Assembly (NCBI GenBank): GCA_903919985.1
Contig: CAIXKG010000200.1
Location: 1-38,981 of the forward strand
DNA from: an uncultured Opitutia bacterium
GTDB taxonomy: Bacteria; Verrucomicrobiota; Verrucomicrobiia; Opitutales; Opitutaceae
Length of the DNA stretch: 38,981 bases
Direction of reading: 5' to 3'
Shown here: positions 12,045-30,348 of the stretch, piece by piece
Position numbering within the stretch: the first letter of the stretch is position 1
Layout: every line of letters starts with the position of its first letter
The notes under the pieces: model-generated
The model's input: only the letters and a program-made list of their open reading frames with translations
What the model was told of the DNA's origin: nothing
The model's database searches: none
Translations under genes and position numbers: made by a program

Positions 12045-12779
12045 TCAGGCGGCGAGGTGGCCATTTGCGTGGGCGGTTTCAAACCAAGCGGAAGGGGGTG
12101 AACCGGGCGCGAACTCCGGGCACGTCTCGGCGAGCAGTTTGCGAAGATTTTCGCGTGCGCGGGCGATGCGGCTCTTGACCGTCCCGACCTTGATGTGAAG
12201 CGCCTGCGCGATCGCCTCGTAGGAGTAGTGATGGATGTTGTGCAGCGTCAGAATCTCGCGCCGCTCGGCGGAGAGTCGCTCCATGCAGGTGGCGATGAGC
12301 GCGGAAAATTCCCCGTTAACGGCTTCGCGTGTGGGATCGGGCGCCTCTGAGGCGATGAGTTCGGTGAAGGTGGCGCCGGCGTGGGCTGTGAGCGGGTAGT
12401 CGAGCGAAAGCGTGGCGTGGCGGTGGCGCCGGACGTAATACCAGTAGCGGTTGCGCGCGAGATTCGTCGCGATGTGGTGCAACCACGTGGCGAGCGAGCA
12501 GTCGCCGCGGAAACGGCCGAGACCGCGATGCGCCCGGAGGAATGTGTCCTGCGTGATTTCCTCGGCGTCGGCCCGGTCGTGGAGCATGCCGAGGACCTTC
12601 GCGAAAGTTTTCCGCTCGTGGCGGTGCATGATCTCGATGAAAGACGTCTCGTCGCCGCCGTTGAAACGGCGCACAAGCCCGGCATCGATGGCGGCTTCGC
12701 ATTTAGCGGCGGCGTGTGGGCCGGCCTGATCGGCCGTGAACGAGTGCGGGGAGGCGGGGGTGTGGTGAACGGTGGACAT
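12045..12779 (-). CDS. ECF-type RNA polymerase sigma factor
   Basis: A 244-residue sigma-70 family protein of the extracytoplasmic-function class. Region 2 spans about 43-110 (DAEEITQDTFLRAHRGLGRFRG then WLHHIATNLARNRYW) and region 4 about 165-216, with a helix-turn-helix ending in VGTVKSRIARARENL. The N-terminal 35 residues are a His/Ala-rich extension; the ATG at 12779 is preferred because the longer frame runs through the PocR-AraC gene. No anti-sigma factor gene is seen nearby. It lies between the release-factor-like gene (142 bp downstream) and the PocR-AraC gene (35 bp upstream), so it probably directs this stress-type cluster. Its promoter motif is not known. Confidence 0.9.
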   Translation of the reverse strand: MSTVHHTPASPHSFTADQAGPHAAAKCEAAIDAGLVRRFNGGDETSFIEIMHRHERKTFAKVLGMLHDRADAEEITQDTFLRAHRGLGRFRGDCSLATWLHHIATNLARNRYWYYVRRHRHATLSLDYPLTAHAGATFTELIASEAPDPTREAVNGEFSALIATCMERLSAERREILTLHNIHHYSYEAIAQALHIKVGTVKSRIARARENLRKLLAETCPEFAPGSPPSAWFETAHANGHLAA

Positions 12780-12814
12780 GGCGGAAGGCTGGTTTCCAGA
12801 AGTGCGGTGGTGTT

Positions 12815-13792
12815 TCAGGCCGCGCTGGCGAAGGAGAAGGAACTGCTGATGGACCGTGCGGACTGGTGCAGCCGGTCGTGATAGCGCGAAGGCGATTCGC
12901 CGGCGATGCGGTGGAACACCCGGTTGAATTGCGAAAGCGACTGGAAGCCGGCCGCGAAGGCGGCCTCGCTCATGCGGGCGTGGGGATTGAGCAGCATATG
13001 CTTCACGGTCTCGACGCGTAGCCGCGCCAAGTACTCCGTAAACGTAAGGCCCGTCACCTTTTTGAAGACCTTGCAGAAATAAAACGCACTCATGTTGGCT
13101 ACGCGGGCAACATCCGCGAGGGCCAGATCCTCGCTCTGTTGCGCCGCGATGAACGCGCGCGCCCGGGCGATGGCGGGCAATTCGGACTGTGCTTCGCTGA
13201 CCATCACCTGATTGCTCAGCGAACCGAGGTGCTGGGCAAAAATTCCCAAGAGTCGAACGACGGAGTCGTAGTGTTTTTTCGCCACGACCCGAGTTTTGAA
13301 AAAAGCTGTTTCGAGCTCGTGACGGTCGACGCTCGATCCCCACTGGGTCAGTTGATTGGCGATACGGTTAAAATGGGTCCGTGAAGTTTTTTTCATGAAT
13401 ACCTGGCCCGTCTGCAAATAGCCGAGAACCTCGTTTCCGGCCCGCACCGGAATCGCGGATTCAGTCAGGCCGGCGAAGCACACCAGCGTTTTCGCCTCGG
13501 CGGCGGCTTCCGTTTCCACGCGCTGCTGGAGTTGCAGGCAGGCCGCGCACGATTTGTTGCTCGAGGCCAGCAGCGCGCAAAAGGCGTTGGCGTGCTTGGA
13601 GCCGTAAAGCGGGGATTGAAATGATCCTCGCTGCCGGAGCACCAGCGGCAGGCCCGTGGTAGCTTCGAAGGCCTTCTGGTATTCGCGAAAAATTTCGGAG
13701 CGCTGCAAATGCGGAATGGCACTGCGCTCGGCGGGGTTGCGGTCGTCCGCCGGCGTCGCGGAAATCAGAGATGTGGTTCGCATCGCCGACAT
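12815..13792 (-). CDS. AraC-family regulator with N-terminal PocR sensory domain
   Basis: A 325-residue transcription factor. Residues about 35-195 form a PocR domain with the usual cysteine set (Cys72, Cys82, Cys85, Cys105), which in this family binds a small ligand or senses redox state. Residues about 205-310 carry the two AraC helix-turn-helix motifs (ADVARVANMSAFYFCKVFKK and the ARMSEAAFAAGFQSLSQF segment). The start is ATG 13792; ATG 13783 is a second option. The 48 bp before the start contain a perfect inverted repeat CCTTAT-CTTT-ATAAGG inside a block also seen before the signalling operon, so autoregulation is likely. Its stop is 35 bp from the sigma factor gene; it may activate the stress cluster. 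Confidence 0.88.
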   Translation of the reverse strand: MSAMRTTSLISATPADDRNPAERSAIPHLQRSEIFREYQKAFEATTGLPLVLRQRGSFQSPLYGSKHANAFCALLASSNKSCAACLQLQQRVETEAAAEAKTLVCFAGLTESAIPVRAGNEVLGYLQTGQVFMKKTSRTHFNRIANQLTQWGSSVDRHELETAFFKTRVVAKKHYDSVVRLLGIFAQHLGSLSNQVMVSEAQSELPAIARARAFIAAQQSEDLALADVARVANMSAFYFCKVFKKVTGLTFTEYLARLRVETVKHMLLNPHARMSEAAFAAGFQSLSQFNRVFHRIAGESPSRYHDRLHQSARSISSSFSFASAA

Positions 13793-14305
13793 CTTACGGT
13801 AACGGAGCGCCGCGGGAAATTGGAGGTGCGACCTTATCTTTATAAGGAAAATTCTTAGGCCCACCGCGTAAAAACCCAGACATGCGCGGGAGCAAGGTCC
13901 GTCCGGTCTTTCGCAAACGATGTGAAACGGAAGAACGGAAACGGCCTTATGCGATCCCCGATGCGATCTCCTTGGACCAATATGACGACCGCGAGCTACC
14001 ATTTGGGGAAAGTACCCCAGGTTCGCGTTGAGGACTTCCATGCGCTTTGGCGTTTGCGCCCTGGTGCAAGGACACGGAGCAAAGTCCGTTCAAGAATTTT
14101 TCCTGGTGGTTTTGCCGCCGAGCCGTAGCGCCCTTTTCTGGGCGTGGACTCTGGCCGCGGAACGCCCGGGTCTGAAGGCCCCCTCGAAAGATTTAGAGCG
14201 GAAAAAACGTCCAAGGAGGGATTTTCCGGGTCCACGCGGCTCGACGTTCGACGCCGCGCAAAAGTGTGACGTGGTCGCGAGCGGTGCGGCCCGCGGTCGC
14301 CGCCT
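13793..14305. other. 513-bp gene-free stretch upstream of the PocR-AraC gene
   Basis: No credible protein gene is seen on either strand; short open frames here are Arg/Pro-rich and share no family features. The stretch holds the conserved 53-bp block (13807-13859) with its inverted repeat at 13832-13847, and a short hairpin CGCCC-TTTTCT-GGGCG at 14129-14144. It probably contains the AraC promoter on the minus strand. A plus-strand small RNA starting from the conserved block is possible but not supported by a clear terminator. Confidence 0.5.
13807..13859. promoter_or_regulatory. Conserved regulatory block, copy 1 (before pocR-araC)
   Basis: Shares 37 of 53 positions, without gaps, with 15733-15785. 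The core is GGAAATTGGAGG (13815-13826) - 8 nt - TATCT - 3 nt - TAAGG, ending in TTAG. It contains the perfect inverted repeat 13832-13847. It lies directly upstream of the start codon of the minus-strand AraC gene. It may be an operator or an alternative-sigma promoter. Confidence 0.6.
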
Positions 14306-14923
14306 TCAATCTTCGATTCGCGCAGGTTCCGGAGCTTCGATGTCCTGATATGCCCGGCGGATTTCTTCGAGGTGACTGCGATATTTTTCGGCGTCGCCGA
14401 AATCGATAAAATTTTTGTAACGACTGTGCGCACATTTCACGCAACCCGCGTGTTTAATGGGGCACCAGTGTTGCTCGGTTCGCGCGGCGATCTCGGTGAA
14501 GTACGCGAGGATGCCGTTGGCGTAGGCACAGTACTCGCAGTTAAGTTTTTCGAAGAAGTTCAGATAGTTCAGGCGATGGCGGTCGAACGCGATGTAGTCG
14601 CGCCGGCTGACTTTGGGTATGCCATAGATCGGAAAGCAGATCGCTTGATAGAGGGAGCCGATGACGTCCGTGAGAACAATGGGGAGCAGGCAGGCCCAAA
14701 TGACCGGGGCGGTGAGGAGAACGAGAAAACGGGAGTTCAGTAAATAGCGGTGGAAGCTGAGGCGGAGCTCCCGATGCTTGGTTTTCGCCACCGTAGTAAA
14801 CTGCACCTTCTTCTCGTGAATTTTGTAGCAGAACTCGGTTTCTTTCTTCCGAGTTTCGCGAATGAGTTCCTGTTCCAGCAGCCGGATCTGACCGAGCAGC
14901 GCTTCGAGTCTGTCATTTCTCAT
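14306..14923 (-). CDS. Conserved Cys-rich membrane protein of unknown function
   Basis: A 205-residue protein starting at ATG 14923 (the frame extends to 15001 but the first 26 residues are Pro-rich and unlike the rest). The N-terminal 60 residues are charged and helical (RLEALLGQIRLLEQELIRE), two hydrophobic segments lie at about 65-100, and the C-terminal half is soluble with CEYCAYANG, EQHWCPIKHAGCVKCAHSRY and a FIDFGD block. Five or more cysteines in CxxC and CxxxxxxCxxC spacing suggest metal or redox function. I recall a proteobacterial family of unknown role with the same YGIPKV-RRDYI-FDRHRL-YLN pattern; that link is from memory. It is between the unknown 160-residue gene and the PocR-AraC region. 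Confidence 0.8.
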   Translation of the reverse strand: MRNDRLEALLGQIRLLEQELIRETRKKETEFCYKIHEKKVQFTTVAKTKHRELRLSFHRYLLNSRFLVLLTAPVIWACLLPIVLTDVIGSLYQAICFPIYGIPKVSRRDYIAFDRHRLNYLNFFEKLNCEYCAYANGILAYFTEIAARTEQHWCPIKHAGCVKCAHSRYKNFIDFGDAEKYRSHLEEIRRAYQDIEAPEPARIED

Positions 14924-15135
14924 GGGATAAGCGGGTGGGCGTTTTTTTTGATGCGGTTGGGGCCGATGCGACGATGCCGGAGTAAATGCGGGGCCCGGCA
15001 TCCGAACGCAGAAGGGAAAAGCGATCGGGTGAAGTGCGGGCTGTGTCCCGGAGGAAGAGAACGCGGTTCACGGGATTGAGATGGTCGTCGCGGTCAGTCG
15101 GGCTGGACGATGCTGGGGCGGATAGCAGGGCGGGA

Positions 15136-15618
15136 TTATGCGCTGCGCAGGGTAGCTTCATTCACGCCGGGAGCGAAGAACGCGCAGCCTGCTTCCTTGG
15201 CTAGGCGTTGCACGGTCTGTAGGCGCGGCGAATCCACGCGATCAGGCAAATCGGCGCGGCCAAAGAGCGCGGCCACGGCGGTTGTGGCGTTGTGCCGCCC
15301 GGTCAGGCACTTTCCCAGCCAGCTTTCGACGGACAAAGGCAGCAGCCGGAGTACGCTGGACGTGGCGATGACGATCAAGTCGGCTTCGACCGCGGCAGCC
15401 ATCGCGTGCGCCCGATACTCCGGATCCTCCAGCGTCGAAAAACTCCACGGCGACAAGCGCGGTTCCGGGCCGTCCGGAATCCGGCGGAGCAGCGCGGTAA
15501 TAGTTTCCGCCGCCCACATCGCCGCGGCGATGTTTTCGTAGGCGAGGATAACGGTCATTTCGGCGGGCGTGCTGGCATCGGCGCAATCGAGTGCGGTCAA
15601 GGTGGCGGGGGTGTGCAT
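15136..15618 (-). CDS. Unrecognised 160-residue protein
   Basis: Soluble, Ala-rich protein with alternating predicted helices and strands: AEMTVILAYENIAAAMWAAETITALL, then ADLIVIATSSVLRLLPLSVESWL and a C-terminal CAFFAPG segment. This suggests a small Rossmann- or flavodoxin-like alpha/beta fold, but no family was recognised. The ATG at 15618 is chosen because the longer frame (15729) enters the conserved regulatory region. It is divergent from the histidine kinase operon, sharing its 211-bp intergenic region with the second copy of the conserved block, so co-regulation is likely. Confidence 0.65.
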   Translation of the reverse strand: MHTPATLTALDCADASTPAEMTVILAYENIAAAMWAAETITALLRRIPDGPEPRLSPWSFSTLEDPEYRAHAMAAAVEADLIVIATSSVLRLLPLSVESWLGKCLTGRHNATTAVAALFGRADLPDRVDSPRLQTVQRLAKEAGCAFFAPGVNEATLRSA

Positions 15619-15732
15619 GGCTTTGGTTTGATCGTACTGTTTGGGGGACTCGGAACTGCGGCGCGTCAAACAGGGCCAATATGACCGGGAGAGAAGATCG
15701 TCGCTAACATCGTTCCACCCTAGCAGCACGGC

Positions 15733-15785
15733 GCGTCGCCGGAAATTGGAGGAACAGCGGTATCTCGCTAAGGGAATTGCCTAGT
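15733..15785. promoter_or_regulatory. Conserved regulatory block, copy 2 (before the signalling operon)
   Basis: Same ungapped pattern as 13807-13859: GGAAATTGGAGG at 15741-15752, TATCT at 15761-15765, TAAGG at 15769-15773, CTAG at 15781-15784. It also contains the imperfect inverted repeat CTAAGG-GAATTG-CCTAG. It lies 45 bp before the plus-strand kinase start and about 115 bp before the minus-strand unknown gene, so it could serve either. Confidence 0.6.
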
Positions 15786-15829: not shown

Positions 15830-17095
15830 GTGACGCGTAACGCTACGACGGTGCCGTCGAGAGATTTTTCCACCCCGACCAAGGAAGAATTGATTGCGCG
15901 CTTGGAGCGTTTCGCGCGTGAGCGGACCGAATCCGAACGCGAACTGCGCGCCGCGGTGAAGGAGTTGCGCGACGTGAAAGCGGCGCTCGACGAACATGCG
16001 ATCGTCGCGATCACGGACGCGGCCGGAAAAATCACGTACGTAAACGACAAGTTTTGCGCGATTTCAAAAATCTCCCGCGAGGAATTGCTGGGCCAGAATC
16101 ATCGCATCATCAACTCGGGCTATCACCCTAAGGAATTTTTTCGCAGTCTGTGGGCGACCATCAGCCGCGGCGAAATTTGGCATGGTGAAATCCAGAACCA
16201 TGCGAAGGACGGGGAGATTTATTGGGTCAATACCACGATCTACCCGTTTGTCAGCGAGGACGGAAAGCCGGTCCAGTACGTCGCCATTCGCACGGACATC
16301 ACGCAGCGCAAGGCGGACGAAATTGAACTGCAGCAATTCGCATCCGATCTGGCGGAAAAGAACAAGGAGCTAGAGGCGATTGTTTATACCGTGTCGCACG
16401 ATCTGCGTTCGCCGCTGTTGAACGTCCAGGGCTTTGCGCGGCAGCTCGCGCAGGCGTGCGCTTCAATCCAAGGGGCGACCGCCGCGGCGCACGACGGCCT
16501 GGTTCCAGTCGCCGCGTTGAAGGCACCGCTCGAAACCACCATTCCGCAGGCGCTGCGGTTCATCAGCGCGGGCGTGCACAAAATGGAGATGCTGCTCGCC
16601 GGTTTGCTGCGCTACTCACGCTTGGGCCGGATGACGTTGAACATCGGCCCGATTCCCATGAACGAGCTGCTGGCGGAAATCGTCGCGGCGATGAGGTTCC
16701 AGATCGATCAGGCGGAGGCCGAAATCGTAGTCGATCTGCTCCCCGCCTGCCGCGGCGATCGCACCCAAACCAATCAGGTTTTTTCCAACCTGATCGACAA
16801 CGCGCTGAAGTTTCGCGATCCGGCCCGGCCGCTGCGGATCACGGTGACGGGTGGCATCGCCAGCGGGAAGGCGCTTTATCAGGTGGCGGACAACGGGATT
16901 GGCATTGCTCCCTCGCACCAGGCGAAGGTTTTCGAAATCTTTCATCGGTTGGACCCGGAGAAAACGACCGGCGAGGGCCTCGGTTTGACGATCGCCCAGC
17001 TCATCCTCGACCGGCAGCACGGCGGGATCAGGGTCGAGAGCCAGCCGGGCCAGGGTTCCAGTTTTTTCGTTTCCCTTCCGGCCGTCGAATCCTAG
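15830..17095 (+). CDS. PAS-domain sensor histidine kinase
   Basis: A 421-residue soluble kinase without membrane segments. The order is a coiled-coil N-terminus (about 18-52), PAS/PAC domain (about 53-170, with [23 protein letters not shown] and the PAC end [12 protein letters not shown]), HisKA with His190 in [10 protein letters not shown], and HATPase (N box [12 protein letters not shown] boxes DNGIGIAP and GEGLGL). The HisKA type resembles that of cyanobacterial phytochrome kinases. GTG at 15830 is the start: an in-frame stop lies at 15803-15805 and no ATG comes between. It is first in a four-gene operon; the small receiver 16 nt behind it is the likely phosphate acceptor. The PAS ligand is unknown. 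Confidence 0.92.
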
Positions 17096-17111: not shown

Positions 17112-17567
17112 ATGAAAAACGCCCCGACTATTTTGATCGTCGATGACGATGAAGGTCATGCGATCCTGATCCGACAAAATCTGGAGCTGGCTGGTTTGAG
17201 TAACCGCATGGAGCATTTCTGGAATGGGCAGGAAGTTTTAGATTTTCTTTTTCTCCGTCAGCCCGACCGCTCCCGAGAAATTGGGGAAAATTATCTAGTC
17301 CTGCTCGATATGCGCATGCCGAAGGTCGACGGCGCGGAAGTCCTGCGGCAGATCAAGGCGGATCCGGAGTTACGCAAGCTGTCGGTCATTATGTTGACGA
17401 CGACGGAGGACGCCCGCGACGTGGAACGGTGCCACGAATTGGGGTGTAGCGTGTACGTGCAAAAGCCGGTAGACTACGACCGGTTTACCGAGGCGGTCCG
17501 CCGGCTCGGGCTTTTCGTGCCGCTAATGCTGACGCCACCGTTGAACGGGCCGCCGGCGAAGTCCTAG
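17112..17567 (+). CDS. Single-domain response regulator, Rcp1-like
   Basis: A 151-residue stand-alone receiver with acidic pocket DDDE (11-14), phospho-acceptor Asp66 in LLDMRMP, Thr in MLTTT and Lys in VQKPVD. The insertion after the second strand (FLFLRQPDRSREIGENYLVLLD) is typical of the Rcp1 type that partners phytochrome-class kinases. There is no output domain, so it probably relays phosphate or binds a partner protein. It sits between the PAS kinase (16 nt) and the hybrid kinase (2 nt gap), which suggests a relay within this operon. Confidence 0.93.
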   Translation: MKNAPTILIVDDDEGHAILIRQNLELAGLSNRMEHFWNGQEVLDFLFLRQPDRSREIGENYLVLLDMRMPKVDGAEVLRQIKADPELRKLSVIMLTTTEDARDVERCHELGCSVYVQKPVDYDRFTEAVRRLGLFVPLMLTPPLNGPPAKS

Positions 17568-17569
17568 TT

Positions 17570-18619
17570 ATGGCCAGGTCCGTCACGCCGCCGCTGATTC
17601 TGATCGTCGATGACGATGAGGGTCTTCGCATTCTGATGGCGGACGCTTTTCGCCACGAAGGATGCGAGGTGGCGACAGTCGATTCGGGGGGCGCGGCCCT
17701 GGCGTGGCTGGAGACCCGGACGCCGGCTTTGATGTTGCTTGATCTGAAGATGAAGGACCTCGGTGGCCCGGCGTTAATCGAGCGGCTCAAGCAGGAAAAT
17801 TCCCTGGTGCCGTTTGTCGTCGTGACCGGACAAGGCGACGAAAACGTCGCGGTCGAAGTGATGAAACAGGGTGCGCTCGACTACGTGATGAAGGACACGG
17901 GTCTGCTCGACCGGTTACCGATCGTGGTTAAACGCGCACTGGATGTGCTAGAGCGGAACCGGGCGCTGGCGGAGGCCGACACCGAAAGGGGGCTGCTGCA
18001 GAAGGAGATCGTTGAGATCAGTGAACGGGAGCAGCAACGCATCGGTCAGGATTTGCACGATGGTCTCGGGCAGCAGTTGACGGCGATCGAGATGCTGTGC
18101 GCAGGTCTTAAGAGTGATGTCGGGTCGCAGCCGGTGCTTAAGAAACAAGTGGAGCTGATCGCGAAATCGATCCGCGAGGCGATCACGTTTGTCCGTCGGG
18201 TATCGCGCGGACTGGCGCCGGAGAACGATGAACCCCGTGCGCTGGAAGTCAGCCTGACCGCACTCGCCGAGCTTTCGAATTCCCTGGGATCCACGCGGTG
18301 CTATTTTGAGTGCCCCGAGCCCGTCGTCATCGACGATGGGGTGAAGGCCGTATCGCTTTACCGGATTGCGCAGGAAGCGGTGAACAATGCGCTCAAGCAC
18401 AGCGGCGCTGGGGAAATCGTGGTGAGTCTCACGCAAACGGTCGAAGCCGTGAAACTCCGCATTTCCGACAACGGCGGCGGTTTCGACCACCGGAGCGGGA
18501 GTGGCATGGGGCAGCAGGTGATGAAACACCGCGCCGCCAGCATCGGCGCGGAATTGAAGGTCGATTCGAAGGCTGGCCACGGCGTGTCGGTTACGTGCAT
18601 CCTGCCCCGAGCGCTATGA
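17570..18619 (+). CDS. Receiver-HisKA_3 hybrid histidine kinase (NarX/UhpB-type)
   Basis: A 349-residue protein with an N-terminal receiver (about 8-125, Asp58 in LLDLKMKD), a coiled linker (126-150), HisKA_3 with His163 in RIGQDLHDGLGQQL, and a HATPase domain (YRIAQEAVNNALKHS, DNGGGF). HisKA_3 kinases normally pair with NarL-type regulators, and one follows directly, its ATG overlapping the stop (ATGA at 18616-18619). The receiver lets the activity respond to the upstream kinase. No sensor domain is present, so it acts as an internal relay stage. Confidence 0.93.
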   Translation: MARSVTPPLILIVDDDEGLRILMADAFRHEGCEVATVDSGGAALAWLETRTPALMLLDLKMKDLGGPALIERLKQENSLVPFVVVTGQGDENVAVEVMKQGALDYVMKDTGLLDRLPIVVKRALDVLERNRALAEADTERGLLQKEIVEISEREQQRIGQDLHDGLGQQLTAIEMLCAGLKSDVGSQPVLKKQVELIAKSIREAITFVRRVSRGLAPENDEPRALEVSLTALAELSNSLGSTRCYFECPEPVVIDDGVKAVSLYRIAQEAVNNALKHSGAGEIVVSLTQTVEAVKLRISDNGGGFDHRSGSGMGQQVMKHRAASIGAELKVDSKAGHGVSVTCILPRAL

Positions 18620-19326
18620 AACAGCCTAGAAAAAATTCGGCTGCGGCGAAAGTGGCCGTCCAGCCCCAGACGCCGGAGCGCAAAAAAATTCTGCTGGTGG
18701 ACGATCATCCCTTTATGCGGGCCGGGGTGGCTCAGTTGATCGATAAACAGCCCGATCTGGTCGTATGCGGAGAGGCCGGCGACCCGGGCGCCGCGATGGG
18801 TGTGCTCGCGAAAACGAAAGCCGACCTGGTGCTCTCCGATATCACCATGCCGGGACGCAGCGGTCTCGAGTTCATCAAAGATCTTTTGGCGCAGTATCCC
18901 AACCTGCCCATCATCGTGCTTTCGATGCATGACGAAATAATTTACGCCGAACGAGCGCTGCGCGCCGGCGCGCGTGGTTACATCATGAAGGAGGCCGGCG
19001 GGGAAAATCTCTTGGCCGCGATCCGGCAGGTTTTGGGCGGACAGGTCTATGTGAGTCTCAAAATGTCGGCGAACATCTTGGATAGTTTCTCCGGCCGGAA
19101 ATCCCGGGATTCAAACTCGCCATTTGGCAAACTCACGGACCGCGAGTTCGAGGTGTTTCAGCTCGTCGGCCAGGGGAAAAGCACACGGGACATCGCCGCG
19201 CAATTGAATCTTAGCCCCAAAACGGTCGATGTGCACCGCGGGCATATCAAAGAAAAATTAGATTTGAAGGATTCCACCGCCCTCGTTCGGCATGCGATCC
19301 GGTGGGTGGAAACCTCGAAGGGGTGA
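18616..19326 (+). CDS. NarL/FixJ-family response regulator
   Basis: A 236-residue regulator with receiver about 23-140 (acidic pair DD at 29-30, Asp75 in LSDITMPG, Lys in YIMKEAGG) and C-terminal LuxR-type helix-turn-helix about 170-220 (LTDREFEVFQLVGQGKST then LSPKTVDVHR). The start ATG overlaps the stop of the hybrid kinase by 4 nt, showing translational coupling. It is the DNA-binding output of the four-gene relay. The conserved block before the operon is a candidate binding site. Confidence 0.93.
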   Translation: MKQPRKNSAAAKVAVQPQTPERKKILLVDDHPFMRAGVAQLIDKQPDLVVCGEAGDPGAAMGVLAKTKADLVLSDITMPGRSGLEFIKDLLAQYPNLPIIVLSMHDEIIYAERALRAGARGYIMKEAGGENLLAAIRQVLGGQVYVSLKMSANILDSFSGRKSRDSNSPFGKLTDREFEVFQLVGQGKSTRDIAAQLNLSPKTVDVHRGHIKEKLDLKDSTALVRHAIRWVETSKG

Positions 19327-22426: not shown

Positions 22427-24754
22427 ATGTCCGACAAGAAAATCACCCTCGAGTTTAACGACAAAGTCGTACGCCAGTTCCTGCTCGCCTCCGTCATTTG
22501 GGGCGCCGTGGGCATGATCGTGGGCGTGCTGATCGCGTCGCAGCTCAACTTCTGGCGTCTCAATTTCAACCTGCCGTGGCTCACCTTCGGCCGGTTGCGA
22601 CCCCTGCACACCAACGCGGTCATTTTCGCACTCGTGGGCAACATGATGTTTGCCGGCGTTTATTATTCCACCCAGCGGCTCGTGAAGGCGCGGCTCGCGA
22701 GTGATTTTCTCTCGGCGCTGCATTTCTGGGGCTGGCAGGCCATCATCGTCGCCGCCGCGATCACGCTCCCGCTCGGGTTCTCCCGCGGCAAGGAATACGC
22801 GGAGCTGATCTGGCCGATCGACATCGCCGTCACACTCATCTGGGTCGTGTTTGCGGTGAATTTTTTCTGGACGCTCGCGCGCCGGCGCGAGCCGAGCCTC
22901 TACGTCGCGATCTGGTTCTACATCGCGACGATCGTCACCGTGGCGATGCTCTACATCGTCAACCATCTCTCGTTGCCGACGAGTTTGGTGCACAGCTATC
23001 CGCTTTTCGGCGGGGTGCAGGATGCGCTCGTGCAGTGGTGGTACGGGCACAACGCCGTGGCGTTCTTCCTCACCACACCGATCCTCGGCATCATGTATTA
23101 CTTTCTGCCGAAGGCGGCGGAACGTCCGGTGTATTCCTACCGGCTCTCGGTGATTCATTTCTGGTCGCTCGTCTTCGTCTACATCTGGGCCGGTCCGCAT
23201 CATTTGCTGAACACCGCACTGCCCGGCTGGCTGCAAAATCTCGGCATGACCTTCTCGCTCATGCTCTGGGCCCCGTCATGGGGCGGCATGCTCAACGGCC
23301 TGCTCACGCTCCGCGGCGCCTGGCACAAACTCCGCACCGATCCGGTTCTGAAATTTTTCGCCGCCGCGGTCACATTTTACGGCATGGCGACGTTTGAGGG
23401 GCCGCTTCTCTCAATCAAGTCGGTCAACGCGCTCGCGCATTACTCCGACTGGATCATCGGCCACGTCCACGCCGGCGCCCTCGGCTGGAACGGCTTCATG
23501 GCGGCAGGCATGTTCTACTGGCTCGTGCCGCGGCTCTGGAGCAAACCGCTCCACTCGGTCGCGATGGCCAACCTGCACTTCTGGATCGGGACGGTCGGCA
23601 TTCTCCTCTACGTTGCGGCGATGTGGACGAGTGGGATCACGCAGGGCGTGATGCTCAACGCCACCACCGACGGTGGCACCGTCCTCGCTTACCCCAACTT
23701 TCTCGATACGCTTAATGCCATTCGATTCATGATGCTGATGCGCGTCGTAGGGGGCGCGCTGTATTTCACCGGTTGGTTGCTCATGGCTTTCAACCTCTGG
23801 AAAACCATCCGCCACGCCCAGCCGGTCAACGGCACGATCGAGGTGTTCGAAGATGAGCCGGTCGCCGCCGCCGCCGAAACCGGACTCTCGGTGCTCGGCA
23901 CTTTCCTCAACCCGCCCGTGCTGTTCTCGATCTTCGGCATCGCATTCGCGAGCGCGTGGATGTTTGGCAATCATCTCCTGAGCGTCGCCGGTCTCGTCGG
24001 TCTGATGCTCAGCGTCATTCTCGCTTACTCGCATTTCGAGTCGCGCGGCAAAGCCTGGGCGGGATGGTACGACCGGCTCCTCGTGAATTCGCTGCCGTTC
24101 ACCTTGCTGACGTTGCTCGCGGTGGTCGCCGGCGGGCTGATCCAGATCATCCCGACGGTGCTCGTCGAGAAAGCCGTGAATCTCGAGGACCGTCGGCAGA
24201 TTCCTTACACGCCGCTCGAACTCGCCGGTCGCGATCTCTATGTGCGCGAGGGCTGCTATAACTGCCATTCACAGATGATCCGTACGCTCGTCCCGGATGT
24301 CCTCCGCTACGGCGACTATTCGCGCCTCGGCGAATCGATCTACGATCACCCATTTCAATGGGGCTCGAAGCGCACCGGTCCGGATCTCGCCCGCGAAGGC
24401 GGGAAGTATCCGAACATCTGGCACCTCCGCCACCTTGAGGACCCGCGCGGCATTTCCCCCGGATCGAACATGCCGAACTATCCCTGGCTCATCGCGGCCA
24501 CGCTCGATACGAGCACGTTGTCCAAGAAGATCGCCGCCCAACGCGCGATTGGCGTGCCGTATCCGAACTGGACGCCCGAGCAAATCGCCACCCGCGTCGA
24601 CGAGCAAGCGAAGGCCATCGCTCAGGATCTGCGCACCGCCGGCGCCTTTGTCGCACCGGACAAAGAGGTCATCGCGCTCATCGCCTACCTTCAAAAGTTG
24701 GGCTCCTACGAGATCGTGCGCGGCGGGCCGACAAAAGTAGCGGGTAGCGAATAG
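22427..24754 (+). CDS. ccoNO: cbb3-type cytochrome c oxidase, CcoN-CcoO fusion
   Basis: A 775-residue fusion of the catalytic subunit and the monoheme cytochrome subunit of the high-affinity terminal oxidase. Part 1 (about 1-480) is CcoN with 12 or so membrane helices and the heme/CuB histidines in RPLHTNAV, WWYGHNAVAF, GPHHLLN and GHVHAG. Part 2 (about 500-775) is CcoO: a membrane helix, heme c site Cys610-Tyr-Asn-Cys613-His614 and SPGSNMPNYPWL with a likely axial Met. Fused ccoNO is known in Verrucomicrobiota and some other groups. It reduces O2 at low oxygen and pumps protons. It starts the main oxidase gene series ccoNO-Q-P-G-I. No Shine-Dalgarno sequence precedes ATG 22427. Confidence 0.96.
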   Translation: MSDKKITLEFNDKVVRQFLLASVIWGAVGMIVGVLIASQLNFWRLNFNLPWLTFGRLRPLHTNAVIFALVGNMMFAGVYYSTQRLVKARLASDFLSALHFWGWQAIIVAAAITLPLGFSRGKEYAELIWPIDIAVTLIWVVFAVNFFWTLARRREPSLYVAIWFYIATIVTVAMLYIVNHLSLPTSLVHSYPLFGGVQDALVQWWYGHNAVAFFLTTPILGIMYYFLPKAAERPVYSYRLSVIHFWSLVFVYIWAGPHHLLNTALPGWLQNLGMTFSLMLWAPSWGGMLNGLLTLRGAWHKLRTDPVLKFFAAAVTFYGMATFEGPLLSIKSVNALAHYSDWIIGHVHAGALGWNGFMAAGMFYWLVPRLWSKPLHSVAMANLHFWIGTVGILLYVAAMWTSGITQGVMLNATTDGGTVLAYPNFLDTLNAIRFMMLMRVVGGALYFTGWLLMAFNLWKTIRHAQPVNGTIEVFEDEPVAAAAETGLSVLGTFLNPPVLFSIFGIAFASAWMFGNHLLSVAGLVGLMLSVILAYSHFESRGKAWAGWYDRLLVNSLPFTLLTLLAVVAGGLIQIIPTVLVEKAVNLEDRRQIPYTPLELAGRDLYVREGCYNCHSQMIRTLVPDVLRYGDYSRLGESIYDHPFQWGSKRTGPDLAREGGKYPNIWHLRHLEDPRGISPGSNMPNYPWLIAATLDTSTLSKKIAAQRAIGVPYPNWTPEQIATRVDEQAKAIAQDLRTAGAFVAPDKEVIALIAYLQKLGSYEIVRGGPTKVAGSE

Positions 24755-24829
24755 GTCGAACCACGAAGGACCGACTCCCGCGCCCCGCTTTTCCTCCGCC
24801 TTCTCCACCCATTCCTTCTTTTCCCTCCC

Positions 24830-25027
24830 GTGTTCAAACGACTCGTCTTTGAAGAATCCGCTGCGCTGTTCACCATCACCGCTTTTGTCACCGCGGTCTC
24901 GATCTACGTCGCCGTCACTTGGCGCGCCGTGCGGATGAAGCGTCCGCAACTTGAGCGCTTTGAGAACCTGCCTTTCGCCATCGCCACGCCCGCCGCCGTC
25001 CATGACACCGACCAACTTTCCGCCTGA
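24830..25027 (+). CDS. ccoQ: CcoQ-like small cbb3 oxidase subunit
   Basis: A 65-residue protein from a GTG start at 24830, with one membrane helix (about 10-30) and a charged tail (WRAVRMKRPQLERFENLP). Size and position between ccoNO and ccoP match CcoQ (FixQ), which stabilises the oxidase. Its end overlaps the start of ccoP by 26 nt. Named mainly from context. Confidence 0.75.
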   Translation: MFKRLVFEESAALFTITAFVTAVSIYVAVTWRAVRMKRPQLERFENLPFAIATPAAVHDTDQLSA

Positions 25028-25580
25028 AGACACCGATCGTCTCCGTCACCACCGCTTCGACGGCATTCAGGAATTCGACAAGCGCCTCCCAAACTGGTGG
25101 CTGATGACACTCTACGGCTCGATCCTCTTCTGGGTCGGCTACTGGGGTTACTACCAATGGCTGAAAGCCGGCCCGGACGGCCCGCAGGAAATCACGCTGG
25201 CGATGAGCCGGATTGAGGCGGCTCGCCTCGCCTCGGCGCCGACGACGGACGATCCCAGCCTTTGGAAAATGAGCCGCAACCCTGTGATCGTCGAGTCGGG
25301 CCGGGCCACATTCAACACCACGTGCGCAAGCTGTCATACCGACAAGCTCACCGGCGCGATCGGCCCCAACTTGGTCGACCGGCTCTGGATTCACGGTGGC
25401 AAGCCCGCGGAAATCTACGTTACGGTAGACAAGGGCGTGCTCGCTAAAGGCATGCCGCCGTGGGGCCCCATCCTCGGCCCCAAGAAAGTCAGTGAGGCCG
25501 TCGCTTATATTCTCAGTTATCACACCGAAGGAGAACCCATCGAGGTGCAGGCCGCGTGGATTCCCGTGCTGCCGAAGTGA
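25002..25580 (+). CDS. ccoP: cbb3 oxidase CcoP subunit, single-heme short form
   Basis: A 192-residue membrane-anchored cytochrome c that passes electrons to CcoNO. The N-terminal part has the CcoP marker FDGIQEFDKRLPNWW and a membrane helix (about 33-53). Only one heme c site is found: Cys108-Ala-Ser-Cys111-His112, with Met151 in GMPPW as likely axial ligand. Typical CcoP is near 300 residues with two hemes, so one cytochrome domain is missing. ATG 25002 is chosen over ATG 24951 because it begins right at the conserved N-terminus. It is 30 nt before ccoG. Confidence 0.93.
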   Translation: MTPTNFPPEDTDRLRHHRFDGIQEFDKRLPNWWLMTLYGSILFWVGYWGYYQWLKAGPDGPQEITLAMSRIEAARLASAPTTDDPSLWKMSRNPVIVESGRATFNTTCASCHTDKLTGAIGPNLVDRLWIHGGKPAEIYVTVDKGVLAKGMPPWGPILGPKKVSEAVAYILSYHTEGEPIEVQAAWIPVLPK

Positions 25581-25610
25581 CGCGTACATTCGCGCCGTTT
25601 CTCCTTCGTC

Positions 25611-27053
25611 ATGTCCCCTCCCGTTGCTCCGCCGCCGAACCGCGATTCTGTCACCACGATTGCGGCCGATGGCTCGCGGCGTTTGCTCTATCCGGCGGAC
25701 ACCCACGGTAGATTCACGCGCGCGCGTCAGTGGTCGGCTGCAGGGCTGATCGTATTCTACCTTTCGCTGCCGTGGATCAAAGTTAACGGGTATCCGGCGG
25801 TATTCCTCGATATCACGGAGCGGCGCTTCCACCTCTTCGGCCTCACGCTGGCGGCGCAGGATCTCTGGCTGATGTTTTTCCTGATCACGGGCGTCGGCTT
25901 CTCGCTCTTCTTTATCACGGCGTTGTTGGGACGCATCTGGTGCGGCTGGGCTTGCCCGCACACGGTATTCCTCGACCACGTGTACCGCCGCATCGAACGC
26001 TGGATCGACGGCGATGCGGTCAGCCGCCGTGCGCTCGCCGCGGCGCCGCTGACGGCCGGAAAGTTTTTCAAACGCGCGCTGAAGCATACGCTCTACGTGC
26101 TCGTCTCGGCGGTGATCACGCACCTATTCCTCGCCTACTTTGTTTCTCTGCCGGCCGTGTGGGCGATGGTGAGCGCAGCGCCCGTGGAGCATTGGAGCGC
26201 GTTTGGCTTCGTCGCGGTCTATACCGGCGGGCTCTATTTCAACTTCGCCTGGTTTCGAGAGCAGCTCTGTATCGTCATCTGCCCGTACGGCCGCATCCAG
26301 TCGGCCTTGATCGACGACAACTCACTCGTGATTGGCTACGACGCGAAGCGCGGCGAACCCCGCGGGAAAGTGGGCCCGCCGAACGCCGGCGCGTGCGTCG
26401 CTTGCAACCGCTGCGTTCAGGTCTGCCCCACCGGCATCGATATCCGGCAGGGCCTGCAGATGGAGTGCATCGGCTGCACGGCGTGCATCGATGCGTGCGA
26501 CGACGTGATGGACCGGCTGCATCGTCCGCGGGGGCTGATTCGCTACGACTCGCAAACCGCCTTCGCCGGCAAAACCACCCGCTGGCTGCGGCCACGCACA
26601 ATTTTATACGGCGTGCTGCTCGCCGTGGGCGCGACCGTCGCGACTTGGGCGCTGTCGACGGTGCGACCAGCCAATCTTGGCGTTACTCGGATCACGGGCG
26701 CGCCCTACATCGTCAGTGCGGACTTTGTGCGGAATCAGTTTCTCGTGCGTCTGGTCAACAAGCGCAACGAGCCCGCGCGCTTCGTGCTCCGCGTCGGGGA
26801 CGCGCCGGCCGCACTTCGGCAGACCGGCCTGACCTCGACCATCGAAGTCGCCGCGCTCGCCGAGATAGTCCAGCCGTTGGTACTGCAGATGCCGCGTGCG
26901 GCGTACACCGGTCCGTTTCACTTCGAGATGCGCGTGCGAGACGAGGCGGGGACGTTTCACCTGGAACGCACCGCGGAGTTTCTCGGGCCGGAAGCGCGTT
27001 TATTGCGGGAAGACGAGGAGGATGAAAAACGTGAGCACGAATCCAAAAAATAA
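25611..27053 (+). CDS. ccoG: Cytochrome oxidase accessory protein CcoG (FixG/RdxA)
   Basis: A 480-residue membrane ferredoxin needed for cbb3 assembly; family members act as cupric reductases. Several membrane helices are present (about 43-60, 83-105, 160-185, 200-220). The WCGWACPHTVF motif follows the second. Two 4Fe-4S clusters are bound by CVACNRCVQVCP and CIGCTACIDACD. The C-terminal periplasmic part (about 340-470) has an Ig-like fold. It starts 30 nt after ccoP and overlaps the next small gene by 32 nt. Confidence 0.95.
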   Translation: MSPPVAPPPNRDSVTTIAADGSRRLLYPADTHGRFTRARQWSAAGLIVFYLSLPWIKVNGYPAVFLDITERRFHLFGLTLAAQDLWLMFFLITGVGFSLFFITALLGRIWCGWACPHTVFLDHVYRRIERWIDGDAVSRRALAAAPLTAGKFFKRALKHTLYVLVSAVITHLFLAYFVSLPAVWAMVSAAPVEHWSAFGFVAVYTGGLYFNFAWFREQLCIVICPYGRIQSALIDDNSLVIGYDAKRGEPRGKVGPPNAGACVACNRCVQVCPTGIDIRQGLQMECIGCTACIDACDDVMDRLHRPRGLIRYDSQTAFAGKTTRWLRPRTILYGVLLAVGATVATWALSTVRPANLGVTRITGAPYIVSADFVRNQFLVRLVNKRNEPARFVLRVGDAPAALRQTGLTSTIEVAALAEIVQPLVLQMPRAAYTGPFHFEMRVRDEAGTFHLERTAEFLGPEARLLREDEEDEKREHESKK

Positions 27054-27177
27054 ACCGTCGCGTCTCTGGATCTGGTTCGCCGCGGCTTGCATAGTGCAGG
27101 TCGCGGTCTGGACGGGATGGATTGTTTTCGCGTCGAAGCACCGCGTGGCCGAGGTACCGTTGGCGACGGCGCGCTGA
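27022..27177 (+). CDS. 51-residue membrane protein in the CcoH/FixH position
   Basis: One membrane helix (about 14-36) follows a Lys/Asn-rich start, then the short tail ASKHRVAEVPLATAR. Most FixH/CcoH proteins are about 150 residues and begin with a similar helix. This gene lies just where ccoH is expected, between ccoG and the TauE/SafE gene, and could be a minimal form. The ATG at 27022 has GAGGAGG directly before it but within the ccoG end. It overlaps ccoG by 32 nt and the next ATG is 2 nt behind. Confidence 0.55.
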   Translation: MKNVSTNPKNKPSRLWIWFAAACIVQVAVWTGWIVFASKHRVAEVPLATAR

Positions 27178-27179
27178 CC

Positions 27180-27875
27180 ATGGAACTCGCCTCGATCAAT
27201 TCGACCGGCGCTGCGTTTGTTGCCGGACTTGTCACGAGTCTGCATTGCGCGGGGATGTGTGGACCGCTGGCGTGTTCGCTCATGCCGCGCGGGCCGGAGC
27301 GTTCGAGTGCCGATGCGATCAGCACGACGTATCATCTTTCACGTTTGACCGCGTATGGCGTGCTTGGAGCGCTGGCGGGCGGACTCGGGCGCGCGCCACT
27401 TTCGTGGGTATCGCAGTCGGCGCTGCGTTGGCTGCCGTGGTTCACGGTGGTGCTGTTTCTGGCGATCGCGTTTCGCTGGGACCGGCATCTGCCGAAGATC
27501 GCGCTGCTCGGTCGCGGAGTTTTGAAATTGCAGACGTGGATGCAGGGTCGTTCGCGGGTGCAGGCGGCCGCAGTCCTTGGGTTTGCCACGCCGTTGCTGC
27601 CGTGCGGGCCGCTCTATTTTCTGGTCGCGTTGGCGTTGTTGTCGGGCTCGGCGCTGCGCGGGGTGGAGTTCATGGTGGCCTTCGGGCTCGGGACGGTGCC
27701 GTTGCTGTGGGTCGCGCAATCGCAATTTTTCTGGCTGCGAACAAAACTTTCGCCGCGGGCGATGGATGGTGCGCGTCAGACGCTCGCGCTCGCGGCGGCG
27801 TTGGTGGTTGCGTGGCGGCTGCGGGGCACGCTCGGTTTCGTCGGACCGGATCCGGCGTCGTGGATTTGTTTTTGA
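27180..27875 (+). CDS. TauE/SafE (UreH-like) membrane protein of the cco cluster
   Basis: A 231-residue polytopic inner-membrane protein of the sulfite exporter TauE/SafE superfamily. The start motif GLVTSLHCAGMCGPLA with Cys-x-x-x-Cys is typical of the group found with cbb3 genes and copper ATPases. A second repeat begins near GFATPLLPCGPLYF. It probably moves copper or a related ligand during oxidase assembly; this is from gene context. It begins 2 nt after the small gene and ends 1 nt before ccoI, so all are read as one unit. Confidence 0.85.
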   Translation: MELASINSTGAAFVAGLVTSLHCAGMCGPLACSLMPRGPERSSADAISTTYHLSRLTAYGVLGALAGGLGRAPLSWVSQSALRWLPWFTVVLFLAIAFRWDRHLPKIALLGRGVLKLQTWMQGRSRVQAAAVLGFATPLLPCGPLYFLVALALLSGSALRGVEFMVAFGLGTVPLLWVAQSQFFWLRTKLSPRAMDGARQTLALAAALVVAWRLRGTLGFVGPDPASWICF

Positions 27876-27876
27876 G

Positions 27877-30348
27877 ATGAGCGCGGCGGCCAATTTTCTG
27901 GACGTGGGCGGGGTACCCTCACCCCGCATTGGGGGCGTCGAGCGGGGTGGGGGCACCCCGCCCACAGTTGGGAGAAAGCCATCCGTGACTTGCCGCCACT
28001 GCGGTGCCGTGCTGCTCGACGCCCGCATGCAGGAATCCGGCTTCTGCTGCGTCGGCTGCGCCTACGTTTTCCGTCTCGTGCAGGAGCACGGCCTCGACGG
28101 CTATTACCGGATCAAGGACGAGATCACTGCGCCCGCGGATGCCGCGGTGTTTGAGTCTCGCGATTTCGGTTGGCTGGAAAGCGCGCAACGGGCAGCGGAG
28201 GATGCGACAAAAGAAATTCCGGGACTCACGCTCGACGTTCAAGGCCTCTCGTGCGCCGGTTGCGTTTGGCTGATCGAGCGGATCTTTCAGCCTCTGCCGG
28301 GAGCGCGGGATATATTCGTCAACGCGCAGTACGGTTCGATGCGGCTGCGCTGGCAGCGCGGCGAATTTTCCGCGGTGGAGTTCGCGCGCAAGCTTCAGGG
28401 TTTCGGTTATCTCGTCGGACCGGCCGGAGTGCATCCGACCGAACCGCAGAGCCGCGGGCTGGTGAAACGCATCGGGCTCTGCACGGCCTTCGCGATGAAC
28501 GTCATGCTGTTCACGCTGCCGGCGTACTTCGGCATGGCGCCGACGTTTACTTATGCGCCGTTGTTCGGGCTGCTCTCGTTGGTGTTCGCGACGCTGAGCT
28601 TGCTCACGGGCGGAATTTATTTTTTTACGCGAGCGGCGCAGGCCTTGCGAGCCCGCGCGCTCAGCATCGATCTGCCGATCGCGCTCGGCATCGCCGGCGC
28701 CTACACGGGCTCGCTCTACGGCTGGTTCGCCGCGCAGGAACGCTTCATCTACTTCGATTTTGTTTCGGCCTTCATTCTCTTGATGCTCGTGGGACGTTGG
28801 GCGCAGGTCGCGGCGGTCGAGCGGAACCAGCGACGCTTGCTCTTACTGCAACCGCGCCCGCACGCGGTGAGGCTGGCCGATGGCCACACCGTTTCGCCGG
28901 AAAGTCTGCTCGGCCACGAAACGATGTTCATCGCTTCGGGTAATTTCGTCCCGGTCGAGGCGCGACTCGTGACGTCGAAAGCGGAGTTCTCGCTCGCGTC
29001 GATCAACGGCGAAGCCGAGCCGCGGTTGTTTTCCGCCGGTCAGCGTGTGCCCTCGGGCGCGATGAACGTGGGACGCGAGGACGTGTCACTCGTTGCGCTC
29101 CAAGCGTGGGGCGAATCGCTGCTCGCGCAGTTGACGGCCCCGGCTGGAGCGTCGGGCTGGCGGCATGCGTTCCTGGAAAAAATTGTGCGCGGCTATCTCG
29201 CTGGGATTTTGCTCGCGGCCGCGCTGGCCGGCGTGGCGTGGTGGCTGGCGACCGGCGACGCGGTGCGGACGTGCGCGGTGGTGACTGCGACGCTGGTCGT
29301 GTCCTGCCCATGTGCCGTCGGACTCGCGTTTCCCCTCGCTGATGAAATGGCCACCGTGGCAGCGCGCCGGCGCGGCGTGTTTGTGCGCGAGGGCGAGTTG
29401 TGGGCGAAGCTCGGCCGTATCAGAAAAATCGTCTTCGACAAAACCGGGACGCTCACGTTGGAGACGCCGCAGCTGCAAAACCCCGAGGCCTTGGGCGCGT
29501 TGTTGCCCGAGCAACGCGCGGCTTTGCTCGCGCTCGTGCGGGCGCAATCGCATCCCGTGAGCCGGTGCCTGAGCGAGACCTTGCTCGCCGAGGCCGGCGG
29601 AAACGTGCTTGAAGGCGAGGTGCGTGAGACGGTGGGATTTGGCGTCGAACTCGGAGATTGGTCGCTCGGTCGCAGCGGATGGCGCGACGCCAACGCGCCG
29701 GGTGATGAAACGGTGTTCGCGTTCGCCGGACGCGCGCTCGCGCGCTTTCGCTTCAGCGAGGCGATGCGCGCCGATGCGCGCGCCGAAGTGGCCGCACTTC
29801 GTGCGCGTGGATTTGAGGTGCACATTCTCAGTGGTGATGCGCCGACAAAGGTCGAAGCGTTGGCGACGGCCCTCGGCTTGCCGTCCGCGCACGCTCGCTC
29901 GGCGATGTCGCCGCAGGAAAAGGCGGCGTGGCTCGACGAGCACGGTGCGACCGACGCGTTGATGTTGGGCGACGGGGCCAACGATAGTCTGGCGTTTGAT
30001 CGTGCGCTTTGTCGTGGCACGCCCGTGGTCCATCGCGGCGTGCTGGAGCGGAAGGCGGATTTTTATTATCTCGGCGGTGGCATTGGTGGGATTCGCGCTC
30101 TTATCGGGATCAACGACGTGCGCCGCCGCACGCAGCGGATCATTTTGGGCTTCTCGATCCTCTACAATCTTCTCGCCGTCGGGCTCGCGGTGGCCGGCCA
30201 GATGAACCCGCTGCTCGCCGCCGCATTGATGCCGCTGAATTCGCTTCTGACCCTGGCGCTGGTGACGGCGGGAATGCGTTCCGCCTTTCGCGTCGAACCC
30301 AAGGATAAATCCCTTCCAGTCCAACTGGGCCAGACCGCGAGGGTTTGA
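27877..30348 (+). CDS. ccoI: Copper-exporting P1B-type ATPase for cbb3 assembly (CcoI), with in-frame palindrome
   Basis: An 823-residue P-type ATPase that moves Cu to the periplasm for cbb3 maturation. It has an N-terminal Cys-rich metal domain (CRHCG 39-43, CCVGC 57-61), an HMA domain with CAGC (126-129), membrane ion site SCPC in VVSCPCAVGLAF, phosphorylation motif DKTGTLT and hinge GDGANDS. The start ATG 27877 is 1 nt after the previous stop. Residues 10-30 are encoded by a 62-nt REP-like palindrome and are not expected in the family; they lie before the first cysteine pair and so may be harmless. The last 20 residues also resemble a repeat seen again at the dinD end. Confidence 0.95.
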   Translation: MSAAANFLDVGGVPSPRIGGVERGGGTPPTVGRKPSVTCRHCGAVLLDARMQESGFCCVGCAYVFRLVQEHGLDGYYRIKDEITAPADAAVFESRDFGWLESAQRAAEDATKEIPGLTLDVQGLSCAGCVWLIERIFQPLPGARDIFVNAQYGSMRLRWQRGEFSAVEFARKLQGFGYLVGPAGVHPTEPQSRGLVKRIGLCTAFAMNVMLFTLPAYFGMAPTFTYAPLFGLLSLVFATLSLLTGGIYFFTRAAQALRARALSIDLPIALGIAGAYTGSLYGWFAAQERFIYFDFVSAFILLMLVGRWAQVAAVERNQRRLLLLQPRPHAVRLADGHTVSPESLLGHETMFIASGNFVPVEARLVTSKAEFSLASINGEAEPRLFSAGQRVPSGAMNVGREDVSLVALQAWGESLLAQLTAPAGASGWRHAFLEKIVRGYLAGILLAAALAGVAWWLATGDAVRTCAVVTATLVVSCPCAVGLAFPLADEMATVAARRRGVFVREGELWAKLGRIRKIVFDKTGTLTLETPQLQNPEALGALLPEQRAALLALVRAQSHPVSRCLSETLLAEAGGNVLEGEVRETVGFGVELGDWSLGRSGWRDANAPGDETVFAFAGRALARFRFSEAMRADARAEVAALRARGFEVHILSGDAPTKVEALATALGLPSAHARSAMSPQEKAAWLDEHGATDALMLGDGANDSLAFDRALCRGTPVVHRGVLERKADFYYLGGGIGGIRALIGINDVRRRTQRIILGFSILYNLLAVGLAVAGQMNPLLAAALMPLNSLLTLALVTAGMRSAFRVEPKDKSLPVQLGQTARV
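27904..27965. repeat. REP-like imperfect palindrome inside ccoI
   Basis: Outer arms GTGGGCGGGGT (27904-27914) and ACCCCGCCCAC (27955-27965) are perfect. Inner arms CACCCCGC (27920-27927) and GCGGGGTG (27942-27949) are also perfect, with a 14-nt loop. Most bases in between also pair. It is read in frame as residues 10-30 of CcoI (VGGVPSPRIGG then VERGGGTPPT). No second copy was seen in the window. Confidence 0.8.

Follow-up and report, generated by a model that had tools for sequence, protein, structure and literature searches.

Two intergenic regions of an uncultured Opitutia bacterium, one upstream of a pocR-araC gene and the other beside a signalling operon, share a 53-bp block in the window (the whole stretch of 38,981 nucleotides that was analysed), raising the question of whether this block is a regulatory element and, if so, which proteins would recognize it. 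The alignment count agrees with the initial annotation, as positions 13807-13859 and 15733-15785 are identical at 37 of 53 positions without gaps. The core pattern GGAAATTGGAGG-N8-TATCT-N3-TAAGG has two exact matches in the window, with 0.00 expected in shuffled sequences, and two occurrences in the whole assembly (2.6 Mb, approximately 79% complete). When up to three mismatches are allowed, it is present in 11 of 252 family genomes (that of the window and ten others), the reversed control giving one match. At the two pattern-match loci read gene by gene, the match is located just upstream of pocR-araC, divergent from a PAS kinase.

Architecture of the promoter-operator module

The 53-bp block is part of a longer element, which continues past its low end to a -10 hexamer and a start codon (start codon at 13781 for copy 1 and at 15708 for copy 2). 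The pocR upstream regions of 16 relatives can be aligned with both window copies over 69 nt without gaps, giving, in the direction of pocR, the consensus ccTAgGgAatTtCccTAgcgAGATa.gGccgCggc.CCAATT.cC...TG.TA...T. Read on the minus strand, the module is composed of a 17-bp palindrome, CTARGGAAWTTCCYTAG, followed by a GAGATA...CCAATT box overlapping the -35 position and, exactly 21 nt after CCAATT, by an extended -10 (TGnTAnnnT). A sequence-only model of the module, R1, was built from 18 training sequences that include both window copies, so that the R1 scores of these copies listed below are not independent, as opposed to matches in non-training genomes. The features of the window are the following:

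12815-13783, minus strand: pocR-araC, encoding a PocR sensory domain and an AraC HTH (Pfam PocR 6.3e-24, HTH_18 2.4e-22)
13791-13859, minus strand: copy 1 of the promoter/operator module (69 nt), preceding pocR-araC (R1 43.7 bits, E 6.3e-11, own genome)
13842-13858, minus strand: palindrome of copy 1, CTAAGAATTTTCCTTAT, the best of the window (23.7 bits) and the proposed NarL site, with its centre at about -66 to -67
13815-13841, minus strand: GATA...CCAATTTCC box of copy 1, overlapping the -35 position and ranking second in the window (28.1 bits); CCAATT at 13818-13823
13791-13796, minus strand: pocR -10 hexamer TAAGAT, in the conserved TAnnnT column, without the TG of an extended -10, 7 nt before the ATG at 13783
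15136-15621, minus strand: 160-residue gene, predicted flavodoxin-like fold, no Pfam or NCBIfam match
15717-15785, minus strand: copy 2 of the module, flanked by the 160-residue gene and the kinase operon (R1 50.8 bits, E 3.6e-13)
15768-15784, minus strand: palindrome of copy 2, CTAGGCAATTCCCTTAG (22.3 bits)
15741-15767, minus strand: GAGATA...CCAATTTCC box of copy 2, the best of the window (30.1 bits); CCAATT at 15744-15749
15717-15722, minus strand: extended -10 of copy 2, TGC-TAGGGT by sequence, followed after 6 nt by an ATG (15708-15710) that opens a 14-codon ORF
15830-17095, plus strand: PAS histidine kinase, opening the phosphorelay operon (Pfam HATPase_c and PAS)
17112-17567, plus strand: receiver protein (Pfam)
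17570-18619, plus strand: receiver-HisKA_3 kinase (Pfam)
18619-19326, plus strand: NarL/LuxR-type response regulator, proposed binder of the palindrome (Pfam Response_reg and GerE)

Regarding the inverted repeat, which the initial annotation placed in both copies and called perfect in the first, the perfect repeat CCTTAT-CTTT-ATAAGG does exist in copy 1, but it is confined to that copy. What is conserved instead is the 17-bp palindrome (13842-13858 and 15768-15784), imperfect in both window copies, each keeping five of eight symmetric pairs. Its symmetric matrix, with the 17-mer consensus CTAAGGAAATTCCTTAG, describes a two-fold symmetric site upstream of promoters: over 1.10 Mb of related loci it gave 59 matches, 56 of them no more than 400 bp upstream of pocR/kinase system genes, compared to two in the shuffled control. 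Two palindromes away from the pocR and kinase starts, at 9956 in L183 and at 6650 in L184, the latter just after the NarL gene, are possible further targets.

The distances between the parts are also conserved. CCAATT is separated from the -10 by 21 nt in 45 loci and 22 nt in four, whereas between palindrome and CCAATT the distance is 35 nt (39 loci) or 56-58 nt (16 loci). The start codon stands 6-10 nt past the -10 and is in frame in 43 related loci; it coincides with where transcription would be expected to begin and is too near for a Shine-Dalgarno site to be accommodated, and thus the pocR-araC mRNA is probably leaderless. A scan for sigma-70 -35/-10 patterns gave no match, as a degenerate -35 would lead one to expect.

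Distribution among Verrucomicrobia

In the genome of the window, R1 finds only the two copies, the next place scoring 12.2 bits. Across the 252 Opitutaceae genomes there are approximately 66 places at E<1e-4, nearly all directly upstream of a pocR-araC orthologue and within about 170 bp of its start. The module precedes pocR orthologues in about 57 genomes, mostly in the pocR/kinase intergenic region, with the divergent PAS kinase on its other side in most genomes checked. This search of related genomes bears out the earlier proposal of a shared operator defining a small regulon, and sequence comparison thus supports the reading of the two blocks as copies of a conserved minus-strand promoter-operator module. 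Sites away from pocR were seen at a receiver gene and a PAS kinase in G185, at a GNAT gene in G164 and L125, and in a single case, in G015, ahead of a gene related to the 160-residue one, in keeping with the link to that gene made in the initial annotation. L125 (JAOBWF010000313.1) is a contig labelled Acidobacteria that carries an Opitutaceae-type pocR/NarL locus and a GNAT region closely resembling that of G164; it is probably mislabelled or from a mixed bin.

The form with the 35-nt spacing was not found outside Opitutaceae in 372 sampled genomes of the order. In the NarL loci of the named genomes of other Verrucomicrobia, pocR is the first gene of a co-directional pocR-kinase-receiver-kinase-NarL operon, and the palindrome and CCAATT box recur upstream of it; the spacing from CCAATT to the -10 is unchanged, and the palindrome is shifted upstream by about 22 bp, or two helical turns. 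Module matches were also observed upstream of TonB-receptor regions (L098, 1949-2015; L100, 2019-2066; L101, 2042-2085), one of them adjoining another AraC-type gene, possibly as a related AraC-type site. The plasmid search gave no match, and a wider NarL regulon sought in the own genome yielded, beyond the window copies, only palindromes with three mismatches, indistinguishable from chance, the best match elsewhere in the window scoring 10 bits.

Candidate regulators of the module

The presence of the module follows the NarL-type regulator of the operon, not the PocR-AraC proteins generally. A close NarL orthologue is present in 59 of 252 genomes, 58 of which carry the module; two genomes have only the module, one only NarL and 191 neither (Fisher p=1.6e-53, a value that overstates independence as the genomes are related, the pattern being still sharp; NarL and the module-bearing PocR subgroup are co-inherited, so that co-occurrence cannot fully separate the two). 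In G076, a module-only genome, the contig stops before NarL would be reached. G164, with the module and no NarL orthologue, was considered as an exception and set aside, since the same GNAT module adjoins a NarL operon in L125. PocR-AraC homologues, meanwhile, occur in 198 of 252 genomes, most of them without the module. Covariation points in the same direction, although it rests on one group of related loci: in L189, L196, L197 and L199 an altered half-site (TARGTA) accompanies a divergent NarL HTH, and the PocR HTH is ordinary where it was read (L189 and L197), which argues for NarL at the palindrome and for another protein, most simply PocR, at the box.

Based on these sequence comparisons, it is probable that NarL on the palindrome and an AraC-type protein on the CCAATT box together control pocR at this module. 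The cascade from PAS kinase to receiver, receiver-kinase and NarL would deliver phosphorylated NarL to the palindrome, from where, centred near -66 in this family and near -88 in other orders, on the same face of the DNA, it would control pocR. Beside RNA polymerase, an AraC-type protein would occupy the CCAATT box, PocR being the simplest candidate, with less certainty than for NarL. The normal target would be pocR-araC, from the intergenic region with the divergent PAS kinase in the family, and ahead of a single operon in other Verrucomicrobia.

It might also be considered that PocR-AraC alone binds the whole element and regulates its own gene, NarL being a mere genetic neighbour. The element nearly always adjoins pocR and stays with it where the kinase operon lies apart, and the asymmetric CCAATT box overlaps the -35 at a fixed distance from the -10, like a class II AraC site. 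That PocR would act alone is nevertheless rather unlikely: approximately 139 genomes have PocR homologues but no element, those examined having the same or near-identical recognition helices; the two-fold symmetry of the palindrome fits a NarL dimer better; and G015, lacking a module-type PocR but having NarL, uses the element at another gene. Nor does the box accompany this DNA-binding domain wherever it is encoded, as CCAATT at the proper spacing to a -10 is absent from all 13 motif-less pocR upstream regions, although such genes may simply not be autoregulating. A gene for an ECF-type sigma factor is located directly downstream of pocR-araC (12045-12827, minus strand), and it lends some appeal to the earlier suggestion of an alternative-sigma promoter with GGAAAT and TATCT as its plus-strand elements. 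This is very improbable, as these motifs are segments of the CCAATT and GAGATA boxes read on the complementary strand, the conserved -10 at fixed spacing and the start codon are on the opposite (minus) strand, no plus-strand gene follows copy 1, and the variable spacing falls between palindrome and box, not inside a -35/-10 pair; no plus-strand -35/-10 pair with fixed spacing ahead of a plus-strand gene was found. Two similar copies close together could likewise recall a dispersed repeat or an RNA structure, which is scarcely credible when the genome holds two copies only, those elsewhere are nearly always upstream of the same genes, and neither strand has an RNA folding signal (z between -0.9 and +1.0).

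The joint NarL and AraC-type reading has counterparts in known systems. Operators of the NarL/LuxR family such as the DosR/DevR box are short two-fold symmetric sites that precede regulated promoters and have a GGG...CCC core, the DosR/DevR box being a 20-bp palindrome, TTSGGGACTWWAGTCCCSAA. The module palindrome is likewise symmetric with a GGG...CCC core; however, it differs by its TARGGA half-site, its tighter centre (17 bp), the second, asymmetric conserved box and the phylum. An identity with the DosR/DevR box was rejected, as the module has the 17-mer and not the 20-bp site. The box resembles class II sites of AraC/XylS proteins (SoxS and XylS type), which are also asymmetric, lie over the -35 and keep a fixed distance from the -10; here the target gene itself encodes an AraC-type protein, PocR-AraC, whose recognition of the box is a prediction. 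This protein shares its PocR sensory domain and AraC HTH with Salmonella PocR, the pdu/cob regulator, but it is linked to a phosphorelay, and no propanediol genes were seen nearby. A Salmonella-type equivalog was discarded, with an NF047788 score of 84.2 bits compared to the NCBIfam cutoff of 500, and a Salmonella PocR paper (PMC11264322) provided no binding site for comparison.

The second copy and its genomic surroundings

In the window, pocR and copy 1 are separated from the kinase operon and copy 2 by two genes, encoding proteins of 206 and 160 residues. The 206-residue protein (14306-14926, minus strand) belongs to no known family, is probably membrane-bound, and is 77% identical to a protein of G015 and 52% to one of L181, the latter located near the NarL operon. 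For the 160-residue protein, the AlphaFold model (pLDDT 76) has an alpha/beta fold, with weak Foldseek matches to flavodoxins and flavoprotein/FMN reductases. Copy 2 could serve the kinase operon as well as this flavodoxin-like gene, or it could in part be a remnant. As a possible target of copy 2, the 160-residue gene would have a leader of about 90 nt. This role is plausible because its relative in G015 (33% identical) is itself preceded by a module copy, and in L181 the NarL operon has relatives of both intervening genes nearby.

Five other genomes in which pocR and the kinase operon are split have the module only at pocR, indicating that the pocR side is the constant target, that copy 2 may either function or in part be a remnant, and that control of the kinase operon by the module is not general. 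Copy 2 might therefore be a non-functional remnant of an ancestral pocR promoter that stayed behind at the kinase operon when pocR was relocated, as it also retains a -10 and a leaderless ATG opening a 14-codon ORF, with no pocR following. We consider this a lesser, though appreciable, possibility, as copy 2 outscores copy 1 (50.8 vs 43.7 bits) and the similarly split G016, with two module copies, keeps the palindrome and box on the kinase side in spite of a lost -10 (39.8 bits). The 14-codon peptide is no more PocR-like than shuffled peptides, and its candidacy as a leftover PocR N-terminus was dismissed, as 286 of 300 shuffles matched or surpassed it.

A gene cluster for cbb3 oxidase and its assembly (22427-30348, plus strand) is found near the phosphorelay in the window; it comprises fused ccoN/ccoO and ccoG together with genes for a TauE-like protein and for a copper P-type ATPase. 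In G016 (L108) a similar cluster is placed between pocR and the phosphorelay operon. Genes for a nitroreductase and a DksA-like protein are also close to the system in the window. These neighbours suggest low-oxygen control, a link that we only infer since neither the module nor its palindrome is present at the cbb3 operon promoter in the window or in G016. It is conceivable, albeit speculative, that phosphorelay and PocR ligand sensor meet across Verrucomicrobia at one leaderless promoter whose palindrome and box stay in helical phase, as the hub of a low-oxygen or redox switch.

A search of the open-access full-text literature found no description of the module or its regulon. The module is well conserved and apparently undescribed; as a regulatory device it is of an ordinary kind, and the proteins that would bind it are predicted ones. 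It provides a concrete operator for which the regulator, the start site and a leaderless mRNA are predicted, and connects a PocR-AraC protein with a multi-step phosphorelay, while its two spacings (35 and 56-58 nt) constitute a natural helix-phasing experiment.
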